The notes under the pieces: generated by a model | What the model was told of the DNA's origin: nothing | What the model saw: the letters and a program-made list of their open reading frames with translations, nothing else | Database searches by the model: none | Translations under genes and position numbers: made by a program | Origin: Daucus carota subsp. sativus | Taxonomy: Eukaryota > Streptophyta > Magnoliopsida > Apiales > Apiaceae | Assembly (NCBI RefSeq): GCF_001625215.2 | Contig: NC_030381.2 | Coordinates: forward strand, 5,109,131-5,173,130 | Length of the DNA: 64,000 nucleotides | Reading direction: 5' to 3' | Shown: positions 17,243-58,200 of the stretch, piece after piece | Layout: each line of letters begins with the position of its first letter | How positions within the stretch are numbered: position 1 is the stretch's first letter

Positions 17243-19257
17243 GTTGCAGGACAAAAAGAAGTGTTATTAACATGCTAAATAAATTCCTGCTAAAAAAGTT
17301 CTTATCTCTGTATTGTGCACTATAACACTAAATTACACAGCTGAAATTTGCAATACATGGTTCTTAGATACTTATCCTAAGGTCAAAATGCTAGTATCAT
17401 GTACCTCTAAGAAACAATCCAACAACAAAAATCTATAGTCTTAAAGATACAAATTATGAGTAAAGTATCAACTAGATAATCAAATGAAAGAATTACATGT
17501 AACATACATGGGCCAAAGTGCAGTTCATAAGCAGATACATTACAGACAAGGATAACTGGATAAGTAAATATGCAAGAAGTAGAATTGTGAAACTAGCAGG
17601 CTTGAAGATAAGAGTTTGTACATAGATAAGGCCTTGTGTGTCCTGCCCAGATATAGTAGTTGTTATAGAACTCAAACAATCTGCTCCCAGTGTGAAATGT
17701 TACACTAGAATATCTATCCACACACATGTGACATGTGTATATGTGTGTGAGAGTGTATGTACAGTAGTGTTGTTTTTAAGGTTGAATAACAACAAAAGGA
17801 TATCCATAACGGTTAAGCTCAGCCATATGTGGAAGCTTGTAATATACTGTACATGAAAATTGTAATTTATTTTACGTACCGGTACAGACTATGTCGATCT
17901 TTGAAATTTCGAATCTTGTCAAAACATGGGTGAGTGTTTTAATTATAAAAATATTATTTTACATATGTTTCAGTACTTTTGTGTATTTTTCTTATAACTA
18001 AATGTTACTCCCTCTGTTTTTTTTTATATGACGCTTTGACTTTTGGCACACACTTTTAAGTGCTTTGACCGGGTAGTTAAAAATATTATTTTTTGAATTT
18101 TTTTTTTCTGAATAATAAAATATAATCAAAATTTTTATTCAGAAAAAGAAAATTTAAAAAATAATATTTTTAACTACCCGGTCAAAGCACTTAAATATGT
18201 GTGCCAAAAGTCAAAGCGTCATATAAAAAAAAACAGAGGGAGTATTTGTTTTTCTATAAATTGTAGGGGTAAATTTAAGTAACAACAGTAATTTTTGTGA
18301 GTGGGCCAAACAGGCAAGAGCTAATACAATTCTTTTCTCCTTCACTGTGGCTTCTCTGTTTTTCTATCTCTAATCCAAAGTCAACATTTCACTGAGTGTT
18401 TTTCTTCTGTTGTGGACTTCTGGTAAAATCTTCAAAGATTTATGAGAAGCAATATACTTGCTTAATTGCTTAGTACGAGAAATGTAGAGTAGGATGTTCT
18501 TAGGCTGTTCCTAATTGAGAACTGTATGTTGCAGCTCGAAAACTGAAAATCTGTTTTCATTTATCTAGTGATCAGCTGCAAATTTTAAGTATTCTGAAGG
18601 TATCTTGTGGTTTATGCATGAATCATGATCATCATACACGGGCGGCAATACCGGACACGACCCGAAACCCGATCCGAACCCGATCCAACCCCCAACCCGC
18701 AACCCGATTTACTGAGACAAAACCCGAAAATCACCTGATTGATCAGTTCTCCTATTATTCTAGATTGTGCATTCCTGTATCCGCACCTGCACTGATTATC
18801 ACTTAAATTAACCTCAGTTCATTTTAGTATTGCAGAAATATATCAAGCGACTGAAGATATATTCTTGCATGGATAAAAGTGGAGAGTAGGAGTAAAATCT
18901 CCAAGACACACCATCAGAAACAAAACAGTGTATAAAAAGAAGAAATAAAGTCTTGTTAATTTTGGATGCACTGGTGCCTAATTTTTGTCGGTTCCTCTTT
19001 TGCTATAAGTCTTCACTTTTCTTCCCTTTCCAGAATTCACAACAGCTTCTTGTAAAGTGAAGACCACAGCGAAAACTTCTGGGAAATGCCTGGTAATTAC
19101 TTGGATTGATCGTGATAATGAATCAAACCAAACATATCTGGTATGTAACCTGGAAGAATATTTAAGATACCTAGCGTAGGAATATGAACAACACTGAAAG
19201 TAAAGCACCCGAATTTAATTCAACATTCACAAAACAAATATGCTAAACTAATAGTAC
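17243..19257. other. spacer upstream of the PPR gene and downstream of the EXORDIUM-like gene
   Basis: This holds the PPR promoter, a palindromic MITE (18008-18242) and, at about 18645-18715, a GC-richer run of imperfect ACCCGA-type units (acccgatccgaacccgatcc and kin). Such runs are common in plant repeat debris. I see no other gene; bases 18800-19257 probably include the 3' end of the EXORDIUM-like transcript. Confidence 0.5.
18008..18242. mobile_element. palindromic Stowaway-like MITE, copy 1
   Basis: The 235-bp element begins ctccctctgttttttttta, ends with its complement (aaacagagggag), and is flanked by TA on both sides (18006-18007, 18243-18244). Nearly the whole length pairs with itself: arms of about 100 bases including tatgacgctttgacttttgg and gctttgaccgggtagttaaa are matched on the other side with few differences. 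A relative lies at 45981-46214. If transcribed it would form a long hairpin. Confidence 0.85.
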
Positions 19258-41457: not shown

Positions 41458-42575
41458 TCAATATTTGGGCACAATGAGAGCCCCAATCACAACAATCCCA
41501 CGCTTCCAGTTGCTATCAGTGTTAACCATTGAGAACTGGATTTCCCCACAGCCAGAAGACTTGCGCACACAGAACTGGCCAAGACTGATGCAGATGATCT
41601 GGTTTCTTGGCATCTGCATGCAGTTCTTTCTGCACACTTGCTTGCATCCGTTAGGATCGACAAGGGTGCATGTGATCGGTCCGGTGATGCAGAGGCAGCT
41701 CAAGAGCTTCACCACGATCTTTACCTCGTAGTGCATACCTTCAGTCAGACAATGGATGCCGTATCTTCCGTCCACTTGTAGCCAGCATACGTTGGTTAAT
41801 TCGTAGCAAGTCACACAGTGGCAACTGCACATAGGTGTCGAGACAAGCTTATCAGAAAAAATAAGATCTTGTTGGAGTTTTCCTCTAGCACCTTAAGGTT
41901 TTAGATGTGATGGCTACTTTTGTTTGTTTGGTTATATATGTTCAATTGTCTGTTCAATCTTACGATTAGGAGGGAGTGTTAAATAATATGATGACTTGTT
42001 TAAGCACTTGACTTTCATTGAAATTTTGGGTTTAAGCAAAATGACGTGTTTGGATATGCAAAAAAGTTGGATTTGGATTTCATTTGAAATTCAGGAAATT
42101 CAAATACTAAAATAAAATTGAGAATTTGAAATGACAGTCCAAATCATGTTATTTGAAATCCAAAATTTAAAATGAATTACATGTTCCTAAACACAATCTA
42201 AAATTATTTTAAAGATTTTAAACGAGTATAATGAACATAGTATATAAAGAAATAGAACTAATCAGTTGACATGAATGAAAATTTCCAGCCTGCTTCCTAG
42301 TTCTTACCCAATCTGTGTGGTAGTGCATTTCCAGTAACGACAGTCTGAACCCCAGCTGATTGAAAGACCGCCAGCACCCATATGCCCAACAATACTCTAA
42401 AAAAAAAATTAAAAAAAATTAAAGACAAAAGTTAATGTTAATGGATCGATGTGGTGCAAATCACAATGCTTATTATTACTGTATTGCACTGGGAAGGACA
42501 GTGGAGCCTCTGTCGATTACAGGCGTGAGACCATAGCGAAGAGATATCATGTGGAGACCAATTTGATAGTGCCAT
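41458..42575 (-). CDS. phloem protein 2-like lectin, gene A
   Basis: Three exons (42480-42575, 42308-42396, 41458-41824) give 183 residues. This 96/89/about 370 bp exon pattern with phase 0 and phase 2 borders is shared by all genes of the cluster. PP2 (Nictaba-related) hallmarks are ELTNVCWLQVDGRY, the LTEGMHYEVKIVVKLL strand, the short NQIICISLGQF, and the ending KRGIVVIGALIVPKY. These match Arabidopsis PP2-A1 (VCWLDITGKF, KKGLSLKGVAIRPK). The protein lacks the long N-terminal extension of PP2-A1 and has no signal peptide, so it should be cytosolic or phloem-sap located and bind GlcNAc-type glycans, if binding is kept. It is Cys-richer than its sisters. Its intron 2 holds a MITE and an LTR-like remnant. 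Confidence 0.85.
41868..41985. mobile_element. possible remnant of a TRIM-like terminal repeat
   Basis: The phrase caccttaaggttttagatg is shared exactly with the right terminal repeat of the TRIM at 33937-34251, here with a diverged start. About 70 bases on, a purine-rich gaggagggagtgtta-like junction resembles its tract plus repeat start. This is a fossil too short to type with confidence, inside intron 2 of PP2 gene A. Confidence 0.35.
42045..42198. mobile_element. foldback MITE (gattgtgtttgg family), copy 2
   Basis: It is in the opposite orientation to the copy at 36193-36396. On the minus strand it starts gattgtgtttaggaacatg and runs through catttcaaattctcaa. It lies in intron 2 of PP2 gene A. 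Confidence 0.6.
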
Positions 42576-42656
42576 CTTGATGGATTCTTGATTTTCAGAG
42601 CAGCTAGCTTTGCTGTTGTATGTTGTTGATGCATTGAACACTCAACATATGAGATG

Positions 42657-42664
42657 TATTTATA
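42657..42664 (-). promoter_or_regulatory. TATA box of PP2 gene A
   Basis: TATAAATA on the minus strand about 80 bases before the ATG. All PP2 genes of the cluster carry a TATAAAT box at a similar distance. Confidence 0.65.
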
Positions 42665-43868
42665 GCTGGCAAAATGAGTATTAGTCATCTAGTATATATT
42701 TGTTTTAGTTGACATTATTGTTTAAGAAGTATAGCTGATCAGGATTACATGAATGCCAGGTGTCATACTATCATGTTAAAACGTATAACAATATGACGTA
42801 TTCATAATTCTGGTGTCTCCAACAAAATAGCTGCAACTATTGATCAATCCGCTATTATTTACAGATAATAGAATTAAAACGTCATTTTTATACGAAGGAG
42901 CTCATTATTCTATCCGTAACTTAAAATAATATCCGTTATTATTTACTGATGATCGGGTTAACATGTCAGTTTATTTGGTGCACCTTATTACTTCTCCATT
43001 GTTCATTTATTTGAGTTATTTGCATAAGATGACAAGCTTCTGTTTGTTAGGATTTTACATTGTCTAGGTCAAGCTGTGATGGCCAGACTAGGCCAGAATG
43101 TAACCAACGAATTTTTGATAGGTTCATCTAATTAAATAAACTATTTGGTTGGTAAACAAAATTGTGAGAGAACATCCACCGTGCTGTCCCATTTATGGAT
43201 AGTCTTGATCATCACTATGTTGTCCCAGTTATGGCAACTCATTTTATGGTTTTATCTGGAAACACAAAAATAGTTTTAAATGTATATTTAAGGTGATATG
43301 ATCGAGTTATCGTTTAATAGTTTGAATTTCAGGTTTATGTTTTTGAATGTCATTTAACTTGTGAATTTTAATAAAATCTGACATTTGCAAAGAAATTGGT
43401 CAAGGATACAGCTGATGATCATCATAGTTACGTACAGGCAAGATGTCATATGTGACGTCAACACGCTTATGTGATTATGTACCCATTGTCTATTTATTAC
43501 TACAACAATTTTCATAAGATGACAAACTTTTGTTTGTTAGGGTTTACACTGTCCAGGTCAACTGTGATGTCTAGTTGGATTAAATATTTGTTCAAGGAAA
43601 TATATTACTCACAGTATTAATAATGACATCATAGATTCTGGTATATACAGCTCTCTTAAATTTTCATATTCTTCCCAGTTCTGATCACATAAAAATTTGC
43701 TTGCCAATTTATCATTTTGAACTGAAAAAACCCTTCAGAATAAATTTTCATATTCATCTGATTTCTGATCACATAAAAATTTGCTTGCCAAGTTACCATT
43801 TCGAAAAGAATCCTGCGATATTAACAAATCGTGCTTCCAACCAAATAAGAAAACAACCAAAACAAATG
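42665..43868. other. spacer between PP2 genes A and B
   Basis: Two local duplications are present. A block of about 70 bp (cataagatgacaa..ttctgtttgttag, ttacattgtctaggtcaa) occurs at about 43022-43090 and again at 43512-43575. A block of about 65 bp (tctgatcacataaaaatttg then cttgccaa) occurs at about 43659-43730 and 43741-43805. No gene is seen. Confidence 0.5.
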
Positions 43869-44665
43869 TTATAGTTTAGGCACGAGAAGAACACCCATTA
43901 TAACCAAGCCGTGCTTCCAACAATCATCAACCTGCACCATAGAAAACTTGATTTCACTGCTTCCAAACACCTCCCGGGGCTGAAAATCTCCCACTGTGAT
44001 GCCTATGACTTGGTTCTTGGGCATTTCCATCAACTTTTTTCGACGCACCTGAGTGCATTCACCAGGAGGAGTGAGGCGAAAGGTCACTGGTTTCTTAATG
44101 TTAAGATCATCCAACAGCTTAACCACAAACATCACTTCATAATGCACTCCTTTAGTGAGCTTTTTAACCTCATATTTCCCATCAATCTGTAGCCAGCATA
44201 CCTTCACTAGCTCAGTAACATCAACCACTCGACCTCTGCAAATTGTTTCAAACATAATCTATCAACCAAAAAAAGAAAAAAAAATAGTTTGAGCAGTTTA
44301 TATTTCAGCCATCTCATGACCAAATTTTCGGGTTTTTTCAGCTTACCCTATATCCTCAGAGATGATTTCCAGTACTGACGAGGGTCTGAACTCCATACAA
44401 TTGAGAGATCCCTTGCACTCAGCTTGCCCACAATGGCAGTCTTTTAATTTAAGGCGCGGTAACACAAAAATACGACATCTTAATATTAGTATAACAAATA
44501 TATGTAGCAAAATATTTGCATGTAATATTGTAAAAAAAAGTAATAATATTCAGAGTTAACAATATCAGAATCTGAATTAAGTACCCTATTGGTGTGATTG
44601 GCACTGTGGAGTTTCTTGCCTGCTGTGGCATGAGACCATAATGAATGGATGTCATGTTGAGACAT
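43869..44665 (-). CDS. phloem protein 2-like lectin, gene B, exon 2 damaged
   Basis: Exon 1 (44585-44665, MSQHDIHSLWSHA) and exon 3 (43869-44235, ELVKVCWLQIDGKYEVKKLT to KHGLVIMGVLLVPKL) are intact PP2-type exons with the cluster's splice phases. Exon 2 as in the sisters would span 44347-44440 and encode AIVGKLSARDLSIVWSS. Near its donor it is one base out of step and runs into TAG, and the phase no longer fits exon 3. A GT at about 44372, after DPRQ codons, would restore phase but delete the conserved YWK stretch. So this is either a gene with a shortened exon or a recent pseudogene. A TATAAATA box lies at 44764-44771. Confidence 0.55.
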
Positions 44666-44771: not shown

Positions 44772-45980
44772 GTACAATTTTGATTCGTTAATCCTGATTC
44801 CTGAATCATGCATTATTCGTTTCAGTTGACATTGGATTAATTTAAACAATATTGTAAAATTATGTTAATCATCAAATGGCAGCTAAATATTTTTTGAATC
44901 TTGGAGATGGATACTGATCTTATGACATCTATTTGTTTAATCCAACATGAGTGTTAAAATACCAGAAGAATTTGTATTATGGCATGTGCATGATTAAGGT
45001 CAGTGATCAGTGATACATGAAACATGGCATGACTAAGAACTCACTAATCATGCAGCAGCGAAATTATATTCTTAACAAACATAATTTAGTGCATGAAAAA
45101 CAGTGCTAAGCATATTCAACTAATTAATGTTAGTGTTTCTGTAGCTGCTAAAAAAATCCTTCCAAATCAAACAAGTCTGGATGAGAACAGAGTCTCTGTT
45201 GCTAAGCTCTCGCTGCAAGCAAAACAGCTAAATTTGACATAAATTAAATTTGAGGGGATTCTGTCGAACTTAATTCACCTCAAATTTATCCTATTAAATT
45301 TTATAAATGCGCCGACTCTTCTTTGAATTTATTTTCTGGCAAGTGAAGCAGAGAGAAATTTAATTAATCCACCCAAATTTAGTTAAATTTTTTTTGAAGA
45401 TATTATTATTCCAGGCAGGCTCTCTATCGGATTTATTACTTTTGTCAGAAATCCATGACACAATCTATTGGTAATGTCAGATTTTCATCAAATTTATATA
45501 TTCCACAAAATTCCGTAAAATTTATACATTTAACGAATTACTGAAAATTATAGAAGTGCCTGATTTATGATACTATGCCATTGTACTTCAAGAGTCACTT
45601 ATTGCATGATTTGTTTATGGAAACTAACTTGACTTTTAAGCTTGTGAGTTGTGATGGCCAGTTATTTGTAAATCTGACAATTCTGACTTCTGGTGGTAAC
45701 TATAAAGAAGTTTTTGCTAAATTTTTGTCCGGAGATAGTAAGAAATGACTGATGAAGATTCGATGAAAACAAAACCAAATTGTTTTATTAAAATTTTATC
45801 TTAGCAACTCCGATCTGTAAAAGTTTTAGTTAAAAAAATGAGTTGACATATAAAAAATAAAAAATATAAATAATAATCTCAAAATTCTCTGAACATACGG
45901 GTCGGCTAAATTATACGTGTGTAAGACATTATGTGAATTTTGTTGGTTATAATGATCGGCTAAATTGGACTTATAAAAGA

Positions 45981-46214
45981 CTCCCTCTGTTGTTTTTTTA
46001 TATGACGCTTTTGACTTGAGCACGCACCTTTAGATGGGTTGACCGGATAGAAAAAATTATTATTCTTAATTGATTTTTTTGTGAATTAAAATTTTGATTA
46101 CATATTTTTATTCAGAAAAAGAAAATTTTAAAAATACTACTTTTAACGATCCGGTCAAAACACTTAAAAGTGTGTGTCAAAAAGTCAAACGTCATACATT
46201 AAAAAACAGAGGGA
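45981..46214. mobile_element. palindromic Stowaway-like MITE, copy 2
   Basis: A 234-bp relative of the element at 18008-18242: ctccctctgttgttttttta at the left and aaacagagggag at the right. Inner blocks are also shared (tatgacgctttttgac-like, gaccggata, tttttattcagaaaaagaaa). The right flank TA is kept; the left flank is GA, so its target duplication has decayed. Confidence 0.75.
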
Positions 46215-46709
46215 GTATTATGTAAAATTTGCTGAACTTGTGACATATTTTGTTTCGATAGTACTGATTATATTGATTAATTATATTTTAAATATAGTTG
46301 CAAATATTGCCAAACTTGTAACATATTTTGTTTCGATGGTACTATGATTTTGAGGAGATTATCTAATATTTTTATTTTTGATATACCAACTCATTTTTTA
46401 ATTAGAGTTTTATATGCTTGGAGTTTCTCTCACATTCCCAACATACATTCCTCTTATCTCTTGTGGATGACTATATTAGTCCAACGGCTACAGATTTGTA
46501 GCAAATGTCACGCCATCGATTATTATATTAAAACAATATTATCTATATACAATAACTTGAATAATAAGAATAATATACTTTTTTTAAGATATAATCGATC
46601 AATATATAATCAGTATTATCAAAACAAAATATCTTATAAATTCTACTAAATTTTACATAATATCTTACGAATACAACAAAATGAATATGGAGTATCACAA
46701 AAGATAGTG

Positions 46710-47372: not shown

Positions 47373-47889
47373 ATCTTGCGGACATAATACGGGTATCTAT
47401 CCAAAAGAGAGGGGATAGATGTATATATAGGATATATTCCAACAATTGACATGCACTAAATTTATACAGGAAGATGTGTGTTACTCGAAGATTCTCTTTA
47501 TAACATGATAGATACTGTACTTCTCGATCTGAAGAATAATATATTTATAATTATATTATATTTTGACAATTTAGACTTATATACTCACAAACTAGTAGTA
47601 TTTGTTCCGATATTTCACAGTTATATAATGATTCTTTCCATAAACATATATATACACATGCCTTGTGATTACTGAAACATCTTATCTTCTCCGATCACCA
47701 CATTATATAACTGGATACTTGAGTTGCATTGGATTATGAATGGATTAATTAGCGGTTTAGTTCATACCACGTTGATGCTGGTGAATAAGGAGTAATATAA
47801 ATGATGGCTTATTCTAGACTTTTGAGTCATCGCAATTGAAAGTAAAACACTAAGTAATTAATTAACACTTGTGTTTTTGAGCAGGGAAG

Positions 47890-48601
47890 ATGATGAGGCT
47901 GAAGAAGAAGTTGCTGGTGATGAGTCACTTTGGTGTCAGGCCAAGGCAGGCCAGAGATTGTCGTGTCCGAAAAACATGAACATTTTGGTAAGCCTGGTTA
48001 TGAAATTGTCGGTACAAATATTTAATTATGTGTTATGAAAAAGTTAACTGATCGATCTTTCTGTATAGAGTGTCATCGGGCATCAGGATGCAAGGGATCT
48101 GAAAGTGGTTTGGGGTTCCGACTCTCGTTACTGGAAATGGAAGACTATGCAAATTGGGTGAGTTGAACAAGGTCTTGTATAATTTTCTCTATATTTTTGT
48201 AACTTTTGTGCTGAAAATTTCTCAGTGGACTTAAAATGGAAGTCGCGGAATTAAAGAATGTGTGCTGGCTGGAAATCAATGGGAAATATGCAATGAAAAA
48301 CCTTACGGGAGGATCGGACTACCAGGTGAAATTTGTTGTGAAGCTCTTGAAAAAATTTAACATTGACAAACCAGTGACCTTTAGCCTGACTACTCCGCGG
48401 GGATGCAAGCAAGAACATACTGAGAACATGATGGAGATGCCGAGAAACAAGATCATTACCATCACTGCCGGGGAATTTGAGGTCCCCTGGAATACTTATG
48501 GATGCGGGGAGATAAGCTTCAGTATGATGAACACTGATGGGTTCTGGAAGCGTGGCTTGGTTGTTATTGGAGCCCTTGTTCTGCCTAAGGTTAATTGGTA
48601 A
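47890..48601 (+). CDS. phloem protein 2-like lectin, gene C, start altered
   Basis: Exon 2 (48069-48157) and exon 3 (48226-48601) are intact and in phase and encode the PP2 core (VVWGSDSRYWKWKTMQIG, ELKNVCWLEINGKYAMKNL, KRGLVVIGALVLPKVNW). Exon 1 aligns with the first exon of D, but the ATG at 47893 is one base out of step and reaches TGA after about 28 codons. In the paralogous frame (ESLWCQAKAGQRLSCPKN) no upstream ATG precedes it. A start at 47976 (MNIL, then exon 2) would give a protein of about 159 residues that keeps the lectin core. TATAAAT is at 47796-47802. It could be a shortened functional gene or a pseudogene. Confidence 0.6.
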
Positions 48602-50081
48602 AATATGTAATGGAAATCAGCTGTATAATAATGGTGGCTTGATATTCATGCAATATCAATTCAATTAAATGAATAAAATAAATGAGTGGTTGGTTTACTA
48701 TTTACTTGCCATTCTTGTCATCGCGTTAGCAAAAACGATCAAGATTCAAACAGTAATACAAGCAAGAGCTCAAAATAAAGAACTGAAAGTGGAATATCGA
48801 AAATAATAAGATGCTAATTCAAACTATAACAAAACCGGAGAAGAAGTGGAATATCGTTGTTGCTCAACCTCTCCTGCCATCGAAAATTTGAAATTATAAG
48901 AAGAAAAAGTAGTTCAGAGCCCGTTTGACTGAGTTTTAAACTGTGTGACCGATAACTTAACCTGACTTATTGTGATAAGCCGAGAGTTTAAAATATACTA
49001 CTAATAACTTATGGATTATTAAAAATGTAATAATAAAAATAAAAGTAAATTATGGGTAACTTATAACTTATGGGTAAAATTATCAATTTTTTTTTTTTTT
49101 TAAAATGAAGTCATCGAAAAATATAACTCAAACTAATTTCTCGATTTAAGTCCGTTTTTGACTTATTTATGTGTTTAAGTCTTATTACAAAAACAAATAT
49201 TTTTGTCACAAACATTCCTAGTCCCCTCAAGTCAAGCGTAGACAAACAACTACACTTTCTTGATAAGAGAATTTGAGACTTCGAGGTGAAACAGCTCGTT
49301 ACATACATTTTTCTAAAACATTCATTTATATTGTTGTATAAAATTGTCAGGTCTCAGTACAACTCTTGCTTGGGAAGTGCTTGCTATTTAATAGGATACA
49401 TGCACCTTTCAACAGCTGAGAAATAACAAATACGTGCCGGAAGCTTGGCCGGTTGGGCCTAACTTGTACACTTACAACTCATGCTGACAGGAAACTGAAA
49501 GAAAGCTTGAAATAGAACCAAAATTTTGTGGTATTTTGGCTAATTTGAACATACAGGATTGCCAAGAATATTATTGCAATCTGCCAACTGAATATAGGTT
49601 TCTATCTAAAATAAAGAAGATGCATATATTCCAAAATTTGACCCACACACAACTTTATACCTAATCTGGATAACTGCCTTTAAGGCTTTTAAGAAAACAT
49701 ATTCCAGAAGATGAGGGTTCCTTGTAAATTCTTTGCAGCATGAATGCATACTTTTTATTTCCTATCAATTTTAGTGCATAAAGAATCCAGTTGAATTGCA
49801 GAGGAACCTTTATGTATAGACTAATTTGAGGAAGAAATGTTTATCAAATTTATCCAACTAAAACTTGGACATAGTTCATAATGATATATGTTGTCGATTT
49901 TCAGTGATTTCTCAATGTTATCACTTCCTGAAATGACCAGATCAGAATTTTCCGCGTGTTAAAATCACCAGAATTATTCTTCTGTGAAAGGACCACAATA
50001 GTTAGGAACAAGAATCCAATTGGAATGAAAAGCTTGCATGCATTATTGGAGATGTTCTGGAAGATCCTGGTTTCTGAGTAC
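48602..50081. other. spacer before PP2 gene D
   Basis: The 3'UTR of C, then AT-rich sequence. From about 49430 it is homologous to 53130-53823, the upstream region of gene F: aagcttggccgg, tattttggctaatttgaaca and actttatacctaatctg are shared blocks. No gene is seen. Confidence 0.6.
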
Positions 50082-50089
50082 TATAAATA
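50082..50089 (+). promoter_or_regulatory. TATA box of PP2 gene D
   Basis: TATAAATA within gagtactataaatactgg, 82 bases before the ATG. The same phrase precedes gene F. Confidence 0.65.
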
Positions 50090-50170
50090 CTGGTTGATTG
50101 TAGAGTTTTAAGTCATCGCAATTGAAAGGAAAACAGTACTAAGTTAATACTTGTTCTTTCAATCGAGATA

Positions 50171-50918
50171 ATGGCTCAAGCAGTGAGGTGTCTTGATGGT
50201 CAGTCACTTTTGTGTCAGGCCAAGGCCGGCCAGAACATGCAGTGTCCCAGGAACCAGAACAATTCGGTAAGCCCTGAGTGTGAAATTATCGATACTAACA
50301 TATTTATCTATTGACACTGGCATAAATATTTGATGGTCTTTCTGTATAGAGTGTCATTGGACATCAGGATGCAAGGGAACTGGAAATCATTTGGGGTTCT
50401 GACACTCGCTACTGGAAGTGGACAAGCATGCAAATCGGGTGAGTTCAGTACTGACAGGAATGGATCATCATTCAAACAACTCTGCAATAGTTCATTGCTC
50501 AACTCATTTTCAATATTTTCTGACATTTTAGTTTGTATTACGCAGTGGACATTGCATTGAAGTTGCTGAATTGATTGATGTCTGCTGGCTGGAAATCAAT
50601 GGGAAATACGCGATGAAAAAACTTACTCCAGGAATGGATTACCAAGTGAAGTTCGTGTTGAAGCTTAACAACAACTTTAACATTGACAAACCAGTGACCT
50701 TTAGCCTGACTACTCCAGAGGGATGCAAGGAAGAGCATAAGGAGAACATGATGCAAATGCCAAGAAACCAAATCATTACCATCAATGCCGGGGAGTTTCA
50801 GACCCCCCGGAACAACTGTGGATGTGGAGAAGTCAAGTACCAGATGATGAACACTGATGGCTTCTGGAAGCGTGGCCTGGTTGTCATTGGAGTCGTCATC
50901 GTGCCCAAATACAATTAA
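50171..50918 (+). CDS. phloem protein 2-like lectin, gene D
   Basis: Exons 50171-50266, 50350-50438 and 50546-50918, all in phase, encode 185 residues: MAQAVRCLDGQSLLCQAKAG at the start, LEIIWGSDTRYWKWTSMQIG from exon 2, and ELIDVCWLEINGKYAMKKLT through to WKRGLVVIGVVIVPKYN. The conserved Trp of the VCWLE motif and the Y-W of RYWKW are kept. This is the best-preserved member of the cluster and serves as the reference for C and F. PP2-A1-type proteins are abundant in phloem sap, bind GlcNAc oligomers and are thought to act in wound sealing and insect defence. No signal peptide or extra domain is present. Confidence 0.9.
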
Positions 50919-51641
50919 ATAAAACCAGTATGCTAGTGAACTACTCCTAAATACCATCTCTATCAATAAATGCAACTCAGTTACATGGGTGGCTGTTACT
51001 AATCAGAATGATATGTAATAGATAACAACTACCTGCTAATGGTGGCTTGATGATCATGCATAAATATGAATAAATATATGATGGTGGTTTATTATTTTCT
51101 TTGCAGTTATGGTTTGCAGAAGAGGATTTATTTTTATTACTGAACTCTGAACTAAAACAAATCTGAAGTTCCGAAGTTGGACTTAGATTTTTCTTCTGAA
51201 AAACCCATAACAGTTACTATTTTTATATATCAAATATCGTCGATTCTTTGACATAACATTTCTGTCAGAAATATTTTCTTCGGAAGAAACAATTAAATCC
51301 TCCACCTTAATGTAGAACTGATCCTATTATGCAGCAAGTCTGGAGACCAAAGCAAATCATTTTATTGGTAATCTATTCATATAAGCCAACCAAACACATT
51401 CGTTGGCTCAATCTTGGCTGATATATATTGACCTAATAAACAAAGTAAATGCCAACACACACAAGCTTGTCATATTATTGAACTTGTACTAATACATTCG
51501 TCACTTCAATCTTGGCTACGGTACTCAATTGTTGACCTAGTAAAGAATGTAAAATGCCAACATACAGAAGTTTGTCATGTCATGAATGTATTCTTGTTGA
51601 GTGTTGTCGTCAACTAAAACAAATATATCCTCAACGACGAC
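50919..51641. other. spacer between PP2 genes D and E
   Basis: The D 3' region (atgggtggctgt..., shared with the region after F) is followed by the E promoter. The repeated phrase acacacaagcttgtcat / acatacagaagtttgtcat occurs at about 51457 and 51559. No other gene. Confidence 0.5.
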
Positions 51642-51649
51642 TATAAATA
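51642..51649 (+). promoter_or_regulatory. TATA box of PP2 gene E
   Basis: TATAAATA about 92-99 bases before the ATG at 51741. Confidence 0.6.
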
Positions 51650-51740
51650 TTACAGCCTAACAGAGAGAGTTCAAGTCATTGAAAATACTTCAACAAGCTA
51701 GCTTCATAAGACATATAACCAGAATCAATATATCAAGAAG

Positions 51741-52489
51741 ATGGCACTATCAAATTGGTCTGCGTATAACATCTCTGCATTATGGTCTTATGCCCGTGAT
51801 GGGAAAAGGCTAAGCTGTCTTTCCCAGCGCAATAATACGGTACTAAGTTGTTCCTCAAGCGCGCACACAATATTTTATTGTTTTATAGATCAATGATTTT
51901 TTTTTTTTCTTTAGAGCATCGTCGGGATTGTAGGGGCAAGCAACCTCAGAATTAACTTGGGTTCTGACAGCAGTTGCTGGAAACGCACTACCAGATTTAT
52001 TAGGTAAGTCGGAAGCATGCCTGTGTAGAGTTGGTGTCAATCCAAGTTCCACGTCATAAAGATACTATTTATTTCAGAACTTGTCTAATTATTTGATATC
52101 ATACTGGTCATTTTGGCAGAGGTTCCCATGCCAGTTGTTATGAATTAACAAGCATACGGTCGCTACAAGTGAGTGGAAGATACGGGATACATTCTCTGAC
52201 AGAAGGAATGCGTTATAATGTGCTGATTGTGGTAGAGTTGTTACAAACTTGCATTACTGGGCCGCTGACATGCACTCTTATTGATTCCACCGGACATAGG
52301 CATGACTCCAAGAAGTATTACTGTTCGCAAATGGTGAAGAACCAAATCATAAGCCTTCATGTTGGCCAGTTCTGTGCCCGCAAGTCGTTATTTGGCTATG
52401 GAGAAATCAACTTCTCCGTAGTCAACACTGATAAAGAACGGAAGCATGGTATCGTCGTGATTGGAGCTCTTGTTGTGCCTGTAAAGTAA
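51741..52489 (+). CDS. phloem protein 2-like lectin, gene E
   Basis: Exons 51741-51839, 51915-52003 and 52120-52489 in phase give 185 residues. The first exon (MALSNWSAYNISALWSYA) is nearest to that of gene A (MALSNWSPHDISSLWSHA), so A and E form one subfamily although they lie on opposite strands. The PP2 core is present (YGIHSLTEGMRYNVLIVVEL, KNQIISLHVGQFCARKS, KHGIVVIGALVVPVK). But the almost invariant VCWL of the family is IRSL here, and exon 2 has SSCWKR in place of RYWKW. The frame is open, so the protein may be made but its glycan binding is doubtful. Confidence 0.82.
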
Positions 52490-52889
52490 AATAGGCCGGG
52501 AAGAAAGTCTGGATAGAAATGGGCATACCTACATTGAAAAGTCCCCCATATACATCAATACACCAAAATCCCATATGCAGAGGAATTTCTACTGTTTTTT
52601 CCTTATTTTGCATTTGGTTAATGATATGACGAATGGAACTTATAGCCACTACTGCATGTTTCAATTTATAGACCATAAATTATAATACAATTTTCACTTA
52701 ACTAGTGCCACACATCATGAATCTATTTTAATTAGACAAGTCTAAACAACAAATTGACACAACAGTACATTTGTAAGTGAACTCCTACAAAAATTGATCA
52801 ATAGCTTACCCAAACTGTTTAAATATTAGGATTTACATAAATCTTCCTCAGAGTCCCTACCCAGATGTAAATATATTATCTTCTAATAT
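52490..52889. other. 3' region of PP2 gene E
   Basis: Homologous to 54821-55200, the region between the E-copy stump and the end of EXO84C (caaaatcccatatgcagag, aacaccaaaatccc-type phrases, cttcctcag.gtccctacccag). No gene. Confidence 0.6.
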
Positions 52890-53066
52890 TCAACCCTCGG
52901 AATCTGTCAAATAAATGGGGCTTTCCAGATCAGCTGCAGTTGCTGAGGCAAAAGAGTCAAAACTATCTACAGATGACAAGGAAGAAGGGCAGTTGTATGA
53001 GTCTGTAGAAGTTTGTTTATTGCAGCCTTTGCAGCTTCAACAAACCATTCATCCTCTGGTGATGCA
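52890..53066 (-). pseudogene. duplicated last exon of EXO84C
   Basis: On the minus strand this reads like the end of EXO84C: a splice-acceptor-like tttgtag, then codons for [11 protein letters not shown]-type residues, and the terminal [12 protein letters not shown] region with the same stop position. Relative to the true exon (55201-55450) it has lost about 70 internal bases of the acidic Ser-rich tail. It has no upstream exons, and gene F lies between it and the rest of EXO84C. It is a by-product of the segmental duplication. Confidence 0.82.
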
Positions 53067-53736
53067 CTACAAAGATATTACAATCTCAGATTGAGGCAGA
53101 AGGAGAATCTTCCCAGTTAAAGGTAACAGTTGTACACTGGGAAGCTTGGCCGGCTAGGACTTGTACACTTACAAGTCATGTTGTGACAGGAAATTTTAAA
53201 AAACCTTCAGGCAGAACCAAATTTTTTGTTGTATTTTGGCTAATTTGAACATACAGGATTACAAAGAATATTATCGCAATTCTATCTGCAATAAAGAAGA
53301 TGCATATATTCCAAAAATTGACCCACACACAACTTTATACCTAATCTGTATAACTGCCTTTAAGGCTTTTAAAAAAACATACTCCACAAGATGAGGGTTC
53401 CTTGTCATTCTTTGCAGCATGAATGCATACTTTTTATTTCCTATCAATTTTTAGTAAATAAAGATTCCAGTTCAATTCCAGAGGAACCTTATGTACTTAT
53501 TCGAGGAAAAAATGTATTTGTTTATCTAATTTATCCAACTAAACTTAGACATAGTTCATGATATATATGTTGTCGATGTTTCATGATTTCTCAATGTTAT
53601 TACTTCCTGAAATGACCAGATCAGATATATCCTAATTATTCTTCTTTGCCAAGGACCAAAATGAATGGAACAAGAATCCAGTTGGGTGAATGAAAAGCTT
53701 GCATGCATTATTGTAGATGTTCTCATTTCTGAGTAC
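53067..53736. other. duplication junction and F upstream region
   Basis: A short piece of EXO84C intron-like sequence runs to about 53095. After the junction the sequence matches the upstream region of gene D. No gene. Confidence 0.55.
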
Positions 53737-53743
53737 TATAAAT
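53737..53743 (+). promoter_or_regulatory. TATA box of PP2 gene F
   Basis: TATAAAT in gagtactataaatgctgg, about 85 bases before the ATG, a near copy of the D promoter. Confidence 0.6.
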
Positions 53744-53823
53744 GCTGGTTGATTGTAGAGTTTTAAGTCATCGCGATTGAAAGAAAACAGTACTAAGTAA
53801 TACTTGTTCTTTCAATCGCGAAA

Positions 53824-54513
53824 ATGGCTCAAGCAGTGAGGTGTCTTGATGGTCAGTCACTTTGGTGTCTGGCTAAGGCAGGCCAGAACAATTCGGTAAG
53901 TGTGAAATTGTAATTAGTACGTTCATATTTATTGACATTGGCATAAGTATCCGACGATCTTTCTGTATAGAGTGTCATTGGGCATCTGGATGCAAGGGAA
54001 CTGGAAATTACCTGGGGTTGCGACACTCGCTACTGGAAATGGATTGGCATGCAAATCGGGTGAGTTCATTTAAAAAGATAGATAGGAATATATGATCATT
54101 ACTATAATCCTGTCTAACATTTTTGTTTCTATTACACAGTGGACATTGCATTGAAGTTGCTGAACTGATTAATGTCTGCCGGCTGGAAATTAATGGGAGA
54201 TACGCGATGAATAAACTTACTGCAGAAATGAATTACCAAGTGAAGTTCGTGTTGAAGCTCTTGAACAATTTCAACATTGACAAACCACTGATCTTTAGCC
54301 TGACTACTCCAGAGGGATGCAGGAAAGAGCATCAGAAGAACATGATGCAAATGTCAAGAAACCAAATCATTACCATCGATGTCGGGGAATTTCAGACCCC
54401 CCCGGAACAATTGTAGATCTGGAGAAGTCAGGTTCCAGATGGATAAAACTGATCACTTTTGGAAGCGTGGCCTGGTTGTCATTGGAGCCGTTGTTGTGCC
54501 CAAATACAATTAA
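53824..54513 (+). pseudogene. phloem protein 2-like lectin, gene F, frameshifted
   Basis: Exons 53824-53895, 53971-54059 and 54140-54513 follow the cluster pattern. Exon 1 is 24 bases shorter than in D (MAQAVRCLDGQSLWCLAKAG then QNNS). Exon 3 is open for about 90 codons, then a C homopolymer one base longer than in D shifts the frame, and translation stops at 54414-54416 instead of near 54513. The product would lack the last PP2 strands, including the KRGLVVIG segment. The VCWLE motif is VCRLE here. The promoter and splice sites remain, so a transcript is likely. Confidence 0.8.
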
Positions 54514-54730
54514 ATAAAACTCAGTTTACATGGGTGGCTGTGACTGTAATAGATAACAACCTACTAATGGTGGCTTGGTGATGATGCATAAATATGAATA
54601 AATATACGATGGTGGTTTATTTTCTGAACTCCTAGATTTTTTTTGTTTGATTTTCTATAAGATATCCAACTCTAAACAATATGTACAAATAAAGATCAGA
54701 ACCCCATTAAGCTAAAACAAATCTGAAGTT
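54514..54730. other. 3' region of gene F up to the deletion joint
   Basis: Matches the 3' region of D up to about 54625. The stretch 54630-54720 is AT-rich, and the last bases before 54731 match 51160-51175. Confidence 0.5.
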
Positions 54731-54820
54731 GGAGAAATCAACTTCTCCGTGGTTAACACTGATAACGAGCGGAAGCATGGTATCGTCGTGATTGGAGCTC
54801 TCGTTGTGCCTGTAAAGTAA
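54731..54820 (+). pseudogene. 3' stump of a PP2 gene (copy of E)
   Basis: The last 90 bases of a PP2 coding exon: GEINFSVVNTDNERKHGIVV then IGALVVPVK and stop, nearly identical to the end of gene E. No exon 1, exon 2 or promoter is left. Confidence 0.85.
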
Positions 54821-55200
54821 AAGTCTGGGATAGAAATGGACAGACTTATTACACTGAAAAGTCCCCCAAATACATCAATACACCAAAATCCCATATGCAG
54901 AGAAATTTCGTACTGTTTTTTCCTTAATTTACATATGCTAAATGATATGAAGAAGTGGACTTATAGTCCACTACTGCATATTTCAATTTATAGTCTAGAA
55001 ATTATAATGCAATTTTCACTAAACTAGTGCAACACATCATGAATCTATTTTATGTAGACAAGTCTAAACAACAAATTGATACAACAGTACATATGTAAGT
55101 GAACTCCTACAAAAATTGATCAATAGCTTACCTAAATTAAGATTTACATAAATCTTCCTCAGGGTCCCTACCCAGATGTAAATATATTATCTTCTAATAT
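54821..55200. other. spacer before the EXO84C 3' end
   Basis: Copy of 52490-52889. It probably holds the EXO84C 3'UTR on the minus strand. No gene. Confidence 0.5.
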
Positions 55201-58200
55201 TCAACCCTCGGAGTCTGTCAAATAAATGGGGCTTTCCAGATCAGCTGCAGTTGCTGAGGCAAAAGAGTCAAAACTATCTACAGATGACAGAGAAGAAGGG
55301 GAGTTGTCTGAGTCTGTAGAGACCTCCTCGTCGTCTATTAGAATATGCTCTTCATCAATTTCTGATGTATCTGATCCAGATGCACCTAATAGAAGTTTGT
55401 TTATTGCAGCCTTTGCAGCTTCAACAAACCATTCATCCTCCGGTAATGCACTACAAAGATATAATAATCTTAGATTGAGGCATTTCTATGTATGAACTTG
55501 GGAAAATTGCAATCGTAGCGTACTTCTAAGAATGTCTGAGCACTTTATCACAAAATGCAGTAATGTACCTTTGTGGTTCTATGCCTCTAGCCGAGAATGT
55601 CTTAATTGCACGCGTAATTATTGACGATGCTATCTGCTGCACATGTCTGGATGGATAACCAGCAAAACGTGCAATCTCAACAGTAAAATGCATGTCAAGA
55701 ATTAACTGCAAATTAAGTTGAATAACAGTTCAACTAGGAGGAACCGAAAAACAATAGATCTAATACAAGATACATAATAAGAGGGAATACAGGCATACAA
55801 CATTCTTCGGAACAAAATTGTATATGTTTAGGCTAGTCATGTTTAGCAAGTTAAAAGTATGATAATGGTTTATAAGTGATATAAGCAAGAGCCCAGGAAA
55901 TATTCTGGCCCAGAAGATGCCACATTAAATCAGTAACCCACTTTAAACATGAATCACAAAATATTCTTAGCATGCACCGGAAGTTGGAGTATGTCTGGAC
56001 TACATAGCCTTCCGATCTTATCAAACAAGATATAGGTCGATGATTTTGCTTACACATATCAATTCAAAATTTATTTAACACCAATAAAGAAATATTTAGA
56101 AAAAACTGTTCATAGTTTGCCATAAAAGCCTAGAGGAATATTAGAATAGAAAAACCAGATTCTGTGTCCAAATTCTTTGAGTCCAAATGAAGCCAGGTGA
56201 ATAAATAAATATGAAGGGAATCACCTACTCGACTTTCCTTATACTAGCGTACTATACACAATTAATTAAAATAAATCAAAATTTCATATTCATTTATGTA
56301 TTTAAATTTATAATTTATAAAGTTATGGAATTTTATATCTATCAGATATGTGGGGCCTGATTAGAGGTACAAAGTTTATTAATCAACTCTAGTCTCTTGC
56401 TACCACTAACTTTATCGTGCATCTTTATCGTGTTTTTTTTACACTAATCAGTTTAATTAAAATAGTATATTGTTTAAAGAATCAAGTATTTATGTATATA
56501 TATACTAGCAAATAACCTTCGCACGGGCATAGTTTGAATTTTATATGATTATAAGAAATTATATTAAATTAATTACTAATATTGATTAATAATACTGATA
56601 ATATATGATTTAACGGGGGGAACAAATAATATAAAATACATATAGTTTATATTGGATTTTCACTTATTTGAGATAAAGAATTTAGAATATTGTAGTTGTA
56701 GAATTATAATGAATCTAATTCACTCTGGCAAGCATAAAATTAATTTTAGATAGATGAAACAGTTAAAATGTCAGAATATATTTCAAACGAAATCTATTAA
56801 ATTTAAGAGATCAAACTTTGATACTATGGCATGCCATGCAAGTATAAGGAGGTTCCGTAATAAACAAAATACTATAACACATAAAAAATTATTATATTAT
56901 ATGTTTAATGCTTTTAGTTATTAAAAATAGTCTATGTTCATGTACAGTAGAATTCTAACGAAATGAATCTAAGTGTAACACATAAAAGTTAAATAAGTCA
57001 AAACCGATATAGTTAAATAAACGAGAATAAATAATTTTTTAGCTACTATAAACATGATTGCAGAAATCGGAACTAATCAGTTGACCTACCGATTCAAGAT
57101 TTATTGGGGATTTATCGGAAATCTTTCGATAAAATTGGAAATTTTTAGTCAAATCGGAAGGTAATCGGTAAAATATTTTTTAAGGATTAATCGATAAGTA
57201 ATATCAATATTTGATACTTCCACAAGAAAGAGATTCAATTATTAATAGAAAGTATTTAATAGTATTGCTTGATCAGTTAAAAGAGTTTCATTATCAAATG
57301 CAATTAAAATGAAAAATCCTTTAAAATCTTATATAAATATTATAAGACAGAATATCAAACGTAATATATTATGTCAGTTTTTTGAAATTGAAAACATAAA
57401 GAAGCCAAGTTTTAGAAATTATAATTAAATACTACTACACTCGTCAAGATTATGAAATATATATAATAAATAGTTCAACAACGTATTAGAAATAGAATAA
57501 AGAATAAAGTGTGTAAAACTATCCAATTAGAATGACACACTTTTACTAACGAGAATGTAACAAAGCTCCTAGGGGGTTTCGGTTATTAAAAGAAATAAAG
57601 GCAAATAATTAAATAATGGTGTTAACTAATGGTATTTTGGTACTTATGGACAACCTTTAAGGTGTTTCGGTTATTAATAACGAGATGCAATCACAATATG
57701 TACCTGCTGCAACCCTATTGACTGCAGACGAGCTGACTTGTCTTCTAAAACACCCCAAAACTCGTTTTCATCAGACAACCAAATGACCACAGTCTCCGTA
57801 AGCCTAGCAAGCAAAACCTTTTGTATCTTTTCCTTCCCGAGTAAGACATCTCCAGCTACAGTTGCTAGCTGTTGCAGCTTTCCAAATAACGCCTGCAGGC
57901 ACAACAGAATTTTCTTTTTTGATCACCCACACACAACAAAATTTTATCCATACAGTACAGGTAATTCAACCAAAAACAAAATTATGAAGATGTGCCAAGT
58001 TAGGTTCAGACTTATATCTAGAAAATTTTGTTGGTGTTTAGCAAACAAACAGTAAAAACTAGTGAGAAGCATGGTCAAAGGTACAGCAGTATTTAAAGAA
58101 TAAGTCAAATTTCTCCATGGGGGATTGTCAAGAAGACCCGACCAGAGATGGAAGTTGGAACAATTATGAGCCTCAGCTGAATTAGACTACACGCGTGGAT

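Follow-up and report, generated by a model that had tools for sequence, protein, structure and literature searches.

Tandem duplication of PP2-family genes together with the last exon of a neighbouring EXO84C gene in carrot

Layout of the duplicated stretch

The window analysed here is a 64,000-nucleotide stretch of the genome of Daucus carota subsp. sativus (NCBI RefSeq assembly GCF_001625215.2, contig NC_030381.2, positions 5,109,131 to 5,173,130 of the forward strand), which carries several genes of the PP2 family, here labelled A to F, and a gene for the exocyst-type protein EXO84C. Between window positions 49439 and 55482, genes D, E and F and the 3' end of EXO84C form two units that lie head to tail on the plus strand and are separated by 41 bp (53099-53139). 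Unit 1 (49439-53098, 3660 bp) comprises an upstream region and D, then E, the spacer between E and EXO84C, and a dead copy of the EXO84C last exon with 32 bp of intron. Unit 2 (53140-55482, 2343 bp) comprises an upstream region and F, a stump of E, the spacer, and the living EXO84C last exon, again with 32 bp of intron. What the units share is the coding part of D and F with the DNA before and after it, the final part of E, the spacer between E and EXO84C and, from EXO84C itself, the last exon and the adjoining 32 bp of intron.

Comparison of the window with itself resolved this similarity into three direct, collinear blocks, pairing 49439-51093 with 53140-54621 (78.6% identity), 52399-53009 with 54730-55320 (88.5%), and 53006-53098 with 55390-55482 (94.6%), and the collinearity of the units was also traced base by base. 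Alignment scores reached 848 upstream of D and F, 541 in the right-hand spacer, and 217 in the EXO84C exon, against 29, 30 and 32 for the best of 100 composition-matched controls each, while beyond 49439 and 55482 similarity was at the level of chance (observed score reached by 185 of 300 and 227 of 300 controls). The copies are thus adjacent, collinear and in the same orientation, as in a direct tandem duplication, and unit 2 is the shorter one mainly through a deletion of about 1.2 kb inside E. Since introns, upstream DNA and spacer all align between the units, non-coding and coding DNA were copied jointly, which is not the outcome of retroposition. A first-pass annotation of the window had proposed the order D, E, dead EXO84C exon, F, E stump and living EXO84C 3' end, along with a self dot-plot diagonal between the units, and both are borne out by the self-comparison. 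Its unit limits of 49430-53125 and 53126-55500 were close, and are refined here to the coordinates given above, with the 41-bp filler between the units.

When the whole duplicated stretch was searched against the 441-Mb genome (11 contigs; match counts are lower bounds), no third copy of the non-coding unit was found. The at least six matches all fell within the window: one was the stretch itself, four were segments of other PP2 genes, and one was an inverted self-match of 51 bp. Among the open-licence papers listed by literature searches, none describes this locus as judged by its title or the beginning of its abstract.

The genes themselves were delineated with hand-made models for D, E and EXO84C. 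Gene D (50171-50918, plus strand; exons 50171-50266, 50350-50438 and 50546-50918) has an open frame of 185 codons, as does the divergent gene E (51741-52489, plus strand; exons 51741-51839, 51915-52003 and 52120-52489), and gene F (53824-54513, plus strand) is a frameshifted copy of D. All three exceed the curated cut-off of 25 bits for the PP2 profile PF14299, with 111.2 bits for D, 45.5 for E and 72.7 for F, the match of F stopping at profile position 118 of 148. Among solved structures, D and E both come closest to the alpha chain of hinokiresinol synthase (8jmq; 62.4 bits for D and 35.2 bits for E). For D it is followed by 17 kDa phloem lectins (7yaq) at 58.5 bits and below, and for E it is the only solved-structure match under E = 0.001. 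For D, E and F, "lectin" is accordingly used as a family label, and sugar binding is putative.

EXO84C is transcribed from the opposite strand, convergent to D and E (62217-55202, minus strand). Its model contains seven coding exons (62217-62122, 61642-61548, 60726-59682, 58862-58341, 57892-57704, 55705-55569 and 55450-55202) and 777 intact codons, ends within the stop codon, one base short, and matches the Exo84_C profile PF16528 with 51.5 bits (cut-off 32); the isoform letter C is taken over from the first-pass annotation. Its last exon starts at 55450, whereas copying extended to 55482, 32 bp into the last intron, and the break therefore left EXO84C intact, with the right-hand unit supplying its true last exon. 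A genome search with the last two exons matched nothing beyond the living gene and two fragments of the dead exon.

Lesions and divergence in the copies

The stranded copy of the EXO84C last exon (52890-53066, minus strand), followed by 32 bp from the last intron (53067-53098, minus strand) at the right end of unit 1, retains its splice acceptor and carries a 73-bp deletion between two TAGA copies that shifts the frame. Living and dead exon were compared in two stretches that overlap by 3 bases, with 5 differences at 118 sites and 2 at 61. This is about half the non-coding divergence between the units, the level to be expected when free drift is confined to the dead copy. In unit 2, about 1226 bp of E corresponding to 51173-52398 of unit 1 are missing, with only short matching bases at the joint, and what is left of the gene is a stump of the final 29 codons of exon 3 plus the stop codon (54730-54820, plus strand).

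Gene F carries a disabling lesion, as a pseudogene would. Its run of C at 54397-54403 is one base longer than that of D (50803-50808), which shifts the frame and leads to a premature stop at 54414-54416, so that F is 32 codons shorter than D after the shared part. In addition, exon 1 is 24 bp shorter in F than in D, and an arginine takes the place of the CWLEI tryptophan common to C and D. The complete gene E has an intact frame, yet it also lacks the CWL tryptophan.

We used gene C (exons 2 and 3, 48069-48601, plus strand) as an outgroup, since D and F are 88% identical at exon 3 sites and are 79% and 76% identical to C, respectively. Across 114 codons before the frameshift, with 13 further codons left unassigned, F accumulated 10 amino-acid-changing and 2 silent changes and D accumulated 2 and 4. 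In exon 3 before the frameshift, dN and dS (rates of amino-acid-changing and silent substitution) between D and F are 0.129 and 0.122 (91 codons), a ratio near 1, with 0.171 and 0.706 (123 codons) between C and D. The comparison leans towards F being unconstrained and D being under some constraint. In gene C (47880-48601), the frame matching D exon 1 lacks an ATG where D starts, and this gene may start elsewhere or be damaged.

Origin of the duplication and competing explanations

We consider it very likely that the locus results from a single direct tandem duplication of about 3.7 kb, generated by error-prone joining of two unrelated ends and followed by separate decay of the redundant pieces. 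An end upstream of D would have been joined to one in the last intron of the convergent EXO84C, leaving about 40 bp of filler at the join, and the complete EXO84C would have stayed with the right-hand unit and a stranded copy of its last exon with the left-hand one. Later and independently, unit 2 would have lost 1.2 kb of E, F would have become frameshifted, and the stranded exon would have lost 73 bp. The anatomy, the collinearity and the lesions are observed, and from them we infer end joining, this order of events and the neutrality of the decay; a gain of new function is unnecessary for explaining any part of it.

A single event predicts similar divergence on the left and right of the unit. 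In gap-free non-coding alignments, 109 of 926 sites differ on the left (11.8%) and 34 of 366 on the right (9.3%; P = 0.24), and the upstream region does not differ from the right-hand spacer (P = 0.66). These values, together with the preserved order, orientation and adjacency of the blocks, argue against two separate events, in which D would have given rise to F on one occasion and the end of E and the EXO84C tail would have been copied on another. The unequal identities of the three blocks and the greater divergence of the F introns, quantified below, are what such a history might leave, and we regard it as very unlikely overall. The first-pass annotation had also proposed one event of about 3.7 kb, which the collinearity, the unique join, and the like divergence on both sides support. 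If plant DNA changes at 7e-9 per site and year, 0.11 of divergence would correspond to about 8 million years, a guess of scale only.

We also considered whether the stranded exon might be in use rather than decaying. With its retained acceptor it could in principle serve as an alternative last exon of EXO84C, the transcript crossing F in antisense direction and the protein lacking its acidic, serine-rich tail, or read-through from E could yield an antisense RNA able to pair with EXO84C mRNA; either use would be highly improbable.

Two haplotypes or a misjoined stretch placed end to end could in principle imitate this structure. Unmerged alleles would not usually differ by 9-12% in non-coding DNA, carry separate large deletions, or include a stranded exon that stops within an intron, however, and the join is a unique sequence rather than a repeat, which makes an assembly artefact extremely unlikely.

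The junction filler (53099-53139) occurs at a single site in the genome, even with up to 3 mismatches allowed. We rejected its interpretation as a diverged flank, as its score against the two flanks was reached by 42% and 88% of 2000 shuffles. A templated origin was likewise rejected: no match closer than 60 bp to the breaks exceeds 9 bp (TTGTACACT), and 9.2% of 3000 random 41-mers from the window do no worse. The 109 bp to the left of unit 1, like the filler, match only themselves in the genome, and a third copy or a transposon at the breaks was dismissed on these grounds. The sequences CTCCCTC and GAGGGAG, found near the ends of inverted-repeat elements in the window, are absent at the breaks, the nearest lying at 46209 and 58549. 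Two related elements of this kind are located at 18006-18244, with 113-nt arms that are 96% complementary, and at 45971-46225, both with CTCCCTC and GAGGGAG near their ends, and we take them to be reminiscent of Stowaway-type miniature transposons.

End joining is suggested as the mechanism by the filler at the join and by the lack of homology between the break sites, as the two, compared over 400 bp each, are no more alike than controls (score reached by 263 of 300 in direct and 222 of 300 in inverted orientation). Unequal crossing over, with pre-existing similar sequences at the two breaks as its starting point, is expected in a PP2 cluster with several similar genes, but is exceedingly improbable here given these unlike break sites and the filler at the join.

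Several results weigh against a single duplication followed by decay of F. Introns 1 and 2 of D and F differ at 33 of 148 sites, which exceeds both the upstream region (69 of 671, P = 0.0002) and the right-hand spacer (34 of 366, P = 0.0001), so that divergence is not uniform along the unit; short, gappy alignments may explain this excess, and conversion, or constraint elsewhere, is another possible cause. The table of amino-acid-changing and silent codon changes in F and D is not significant (P = 0.11), and neither is the excess of unique site changes in F (30 against 17 in D, P = 0.08). Over all three exons (176 codons), dN and dS between D and F are 0.096 and 0.193 by one method and 0.105 and 0.146 by another, and this lower ratio of 0.5 to 0.7 makes some constraint on one copy likely. 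The frameshift in F amounts to a single base in a run of C, where an assembly error is possible. The filler shows no significant sign of local templating (P = 0.09), so that end joining rests on the presence of the filler and the lack of homology. Finally, the protein tree described below does not resolve D with F, nor the branching among B, C, D and F.

The duplication as we read it therefore differs in meaning from what was first proposed. One of its ends does lie inside EXO84C, as the first-pass annotation held, in the last intron and not in the exon, so that the gene stayed whole. Nothing supports the idea that a piece of EXO84C was "used" for the break, given the unlike break sites, the unmatched filler, and an intronic break that spared the gene. 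Nor is there support for lectin genes having been "moved", as both units remain at the locus, and instead of two working lectin genes in new settings, the second unit holds a frameshifted F and a 29-codon stump of E. The earlier account had the structure right almost to the base, and took the interpretation one step too far.

Family history, neighbourhood and meaning

To place the duplicated genes in their family, we used a protein tree of 14 hand-picked rows; a genome search listed at least 67 exon-level PP2 matches, most of which are left out of it. Gene A (41461-41892, minus strand) has an open frame and is sister to E (support 100/99), with a branch length of 0.015 against 0.66 for E. The A-E split, at least, is therefore older than the 3.7-kb duplication. 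The long branch of E and its missing tryptophan could reflect either fast change or early decay. The pair B and A (41461-44442, minus strand) repeats the order of D and E (50076-52489, plus strand) on the opposite strand at 63-70% identity. This arrangement may go back to an earlier, inverted copying of two genes together, with identities of 64-70% between A and E and 63% between B and D, but A and D also share 65%. Outside the window, C1:51869622-51912084 contains dense PP2 matches, including two pairs with equal scores (65.8 and 64.2 bits), and by its matches this array also seems to grow in tandem.

Arabidopsis locus numbers run along the chromosome. AtPP2-A10 is given as AT1G10155 (PMC3030531) and Exo84c as AT1G10180 (PMC10425460), and from these nearby numbers the two should lie close together, a neighbourhood that also fits the isoform letter C. 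For this reason, PP2-type genes probably stood beside EXO84C long before the duplication, and the break most likely fell in what was simply their nearest neighbour.

Comparable histories are described for other plant gene clusters. According to PMC2846932, lectin genes of soybean, rice and Arabidopsis expand by tandem duplication with birth and death, and the carrot locus resembles these families in its clustered tandem copies and in its partial copies; those families have many partial copies, which in the view of the authors might be classed as pseudogenes. The paper also mentions, with data not shown, single events that duplicated two or more genes of a cluster. Unlike those families, the carrot unit includes the last exon of an unrelated neighbour, and the parts of the paper that were consulted do not treat this locus. 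The chimeric maize p2/p1 gene, as reported in PMC2686159, arose by end joining with a 50-bp filler, and shares with the carrot locus a rearrangement in a tandem cluster, an intronic join, and tens of bases of filler. The maize event was a deletion that fused two related genes, with filler from two nearby sites, whereas in carrot a duplication connects an intron of one gene with the upstream DNA of another, unrelated one, and the filler could not be traced to a source. Tandem duplicates are commoner in pseudogenes than in functional genes according to a five-genome survey, with grape as the exception, and tandem pseudogenes keep flanking homology best (PMC7935947); the survey is not about this locus, and has tandem origin and flanking homology in common with it.

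Overall, this is an ordinary, old tandem duplication followed by decay, as in ordinary gene-cluster evolution, in which part of a neighbour is caught whenever the end of a duplication falls inside a gene, and no general view is changed by it. For annotation, it carries a warning: F is not to be listed as one more working PP2 gene, nor the stranded exon as another EXO84C. The locus offers a clean example of a tandem duplication in a plant gene cluster that caught a piece of a neighbour, in which an intronic break spares that neighbour, and decay affects the spare exon, an additional gene and the greater part of another.

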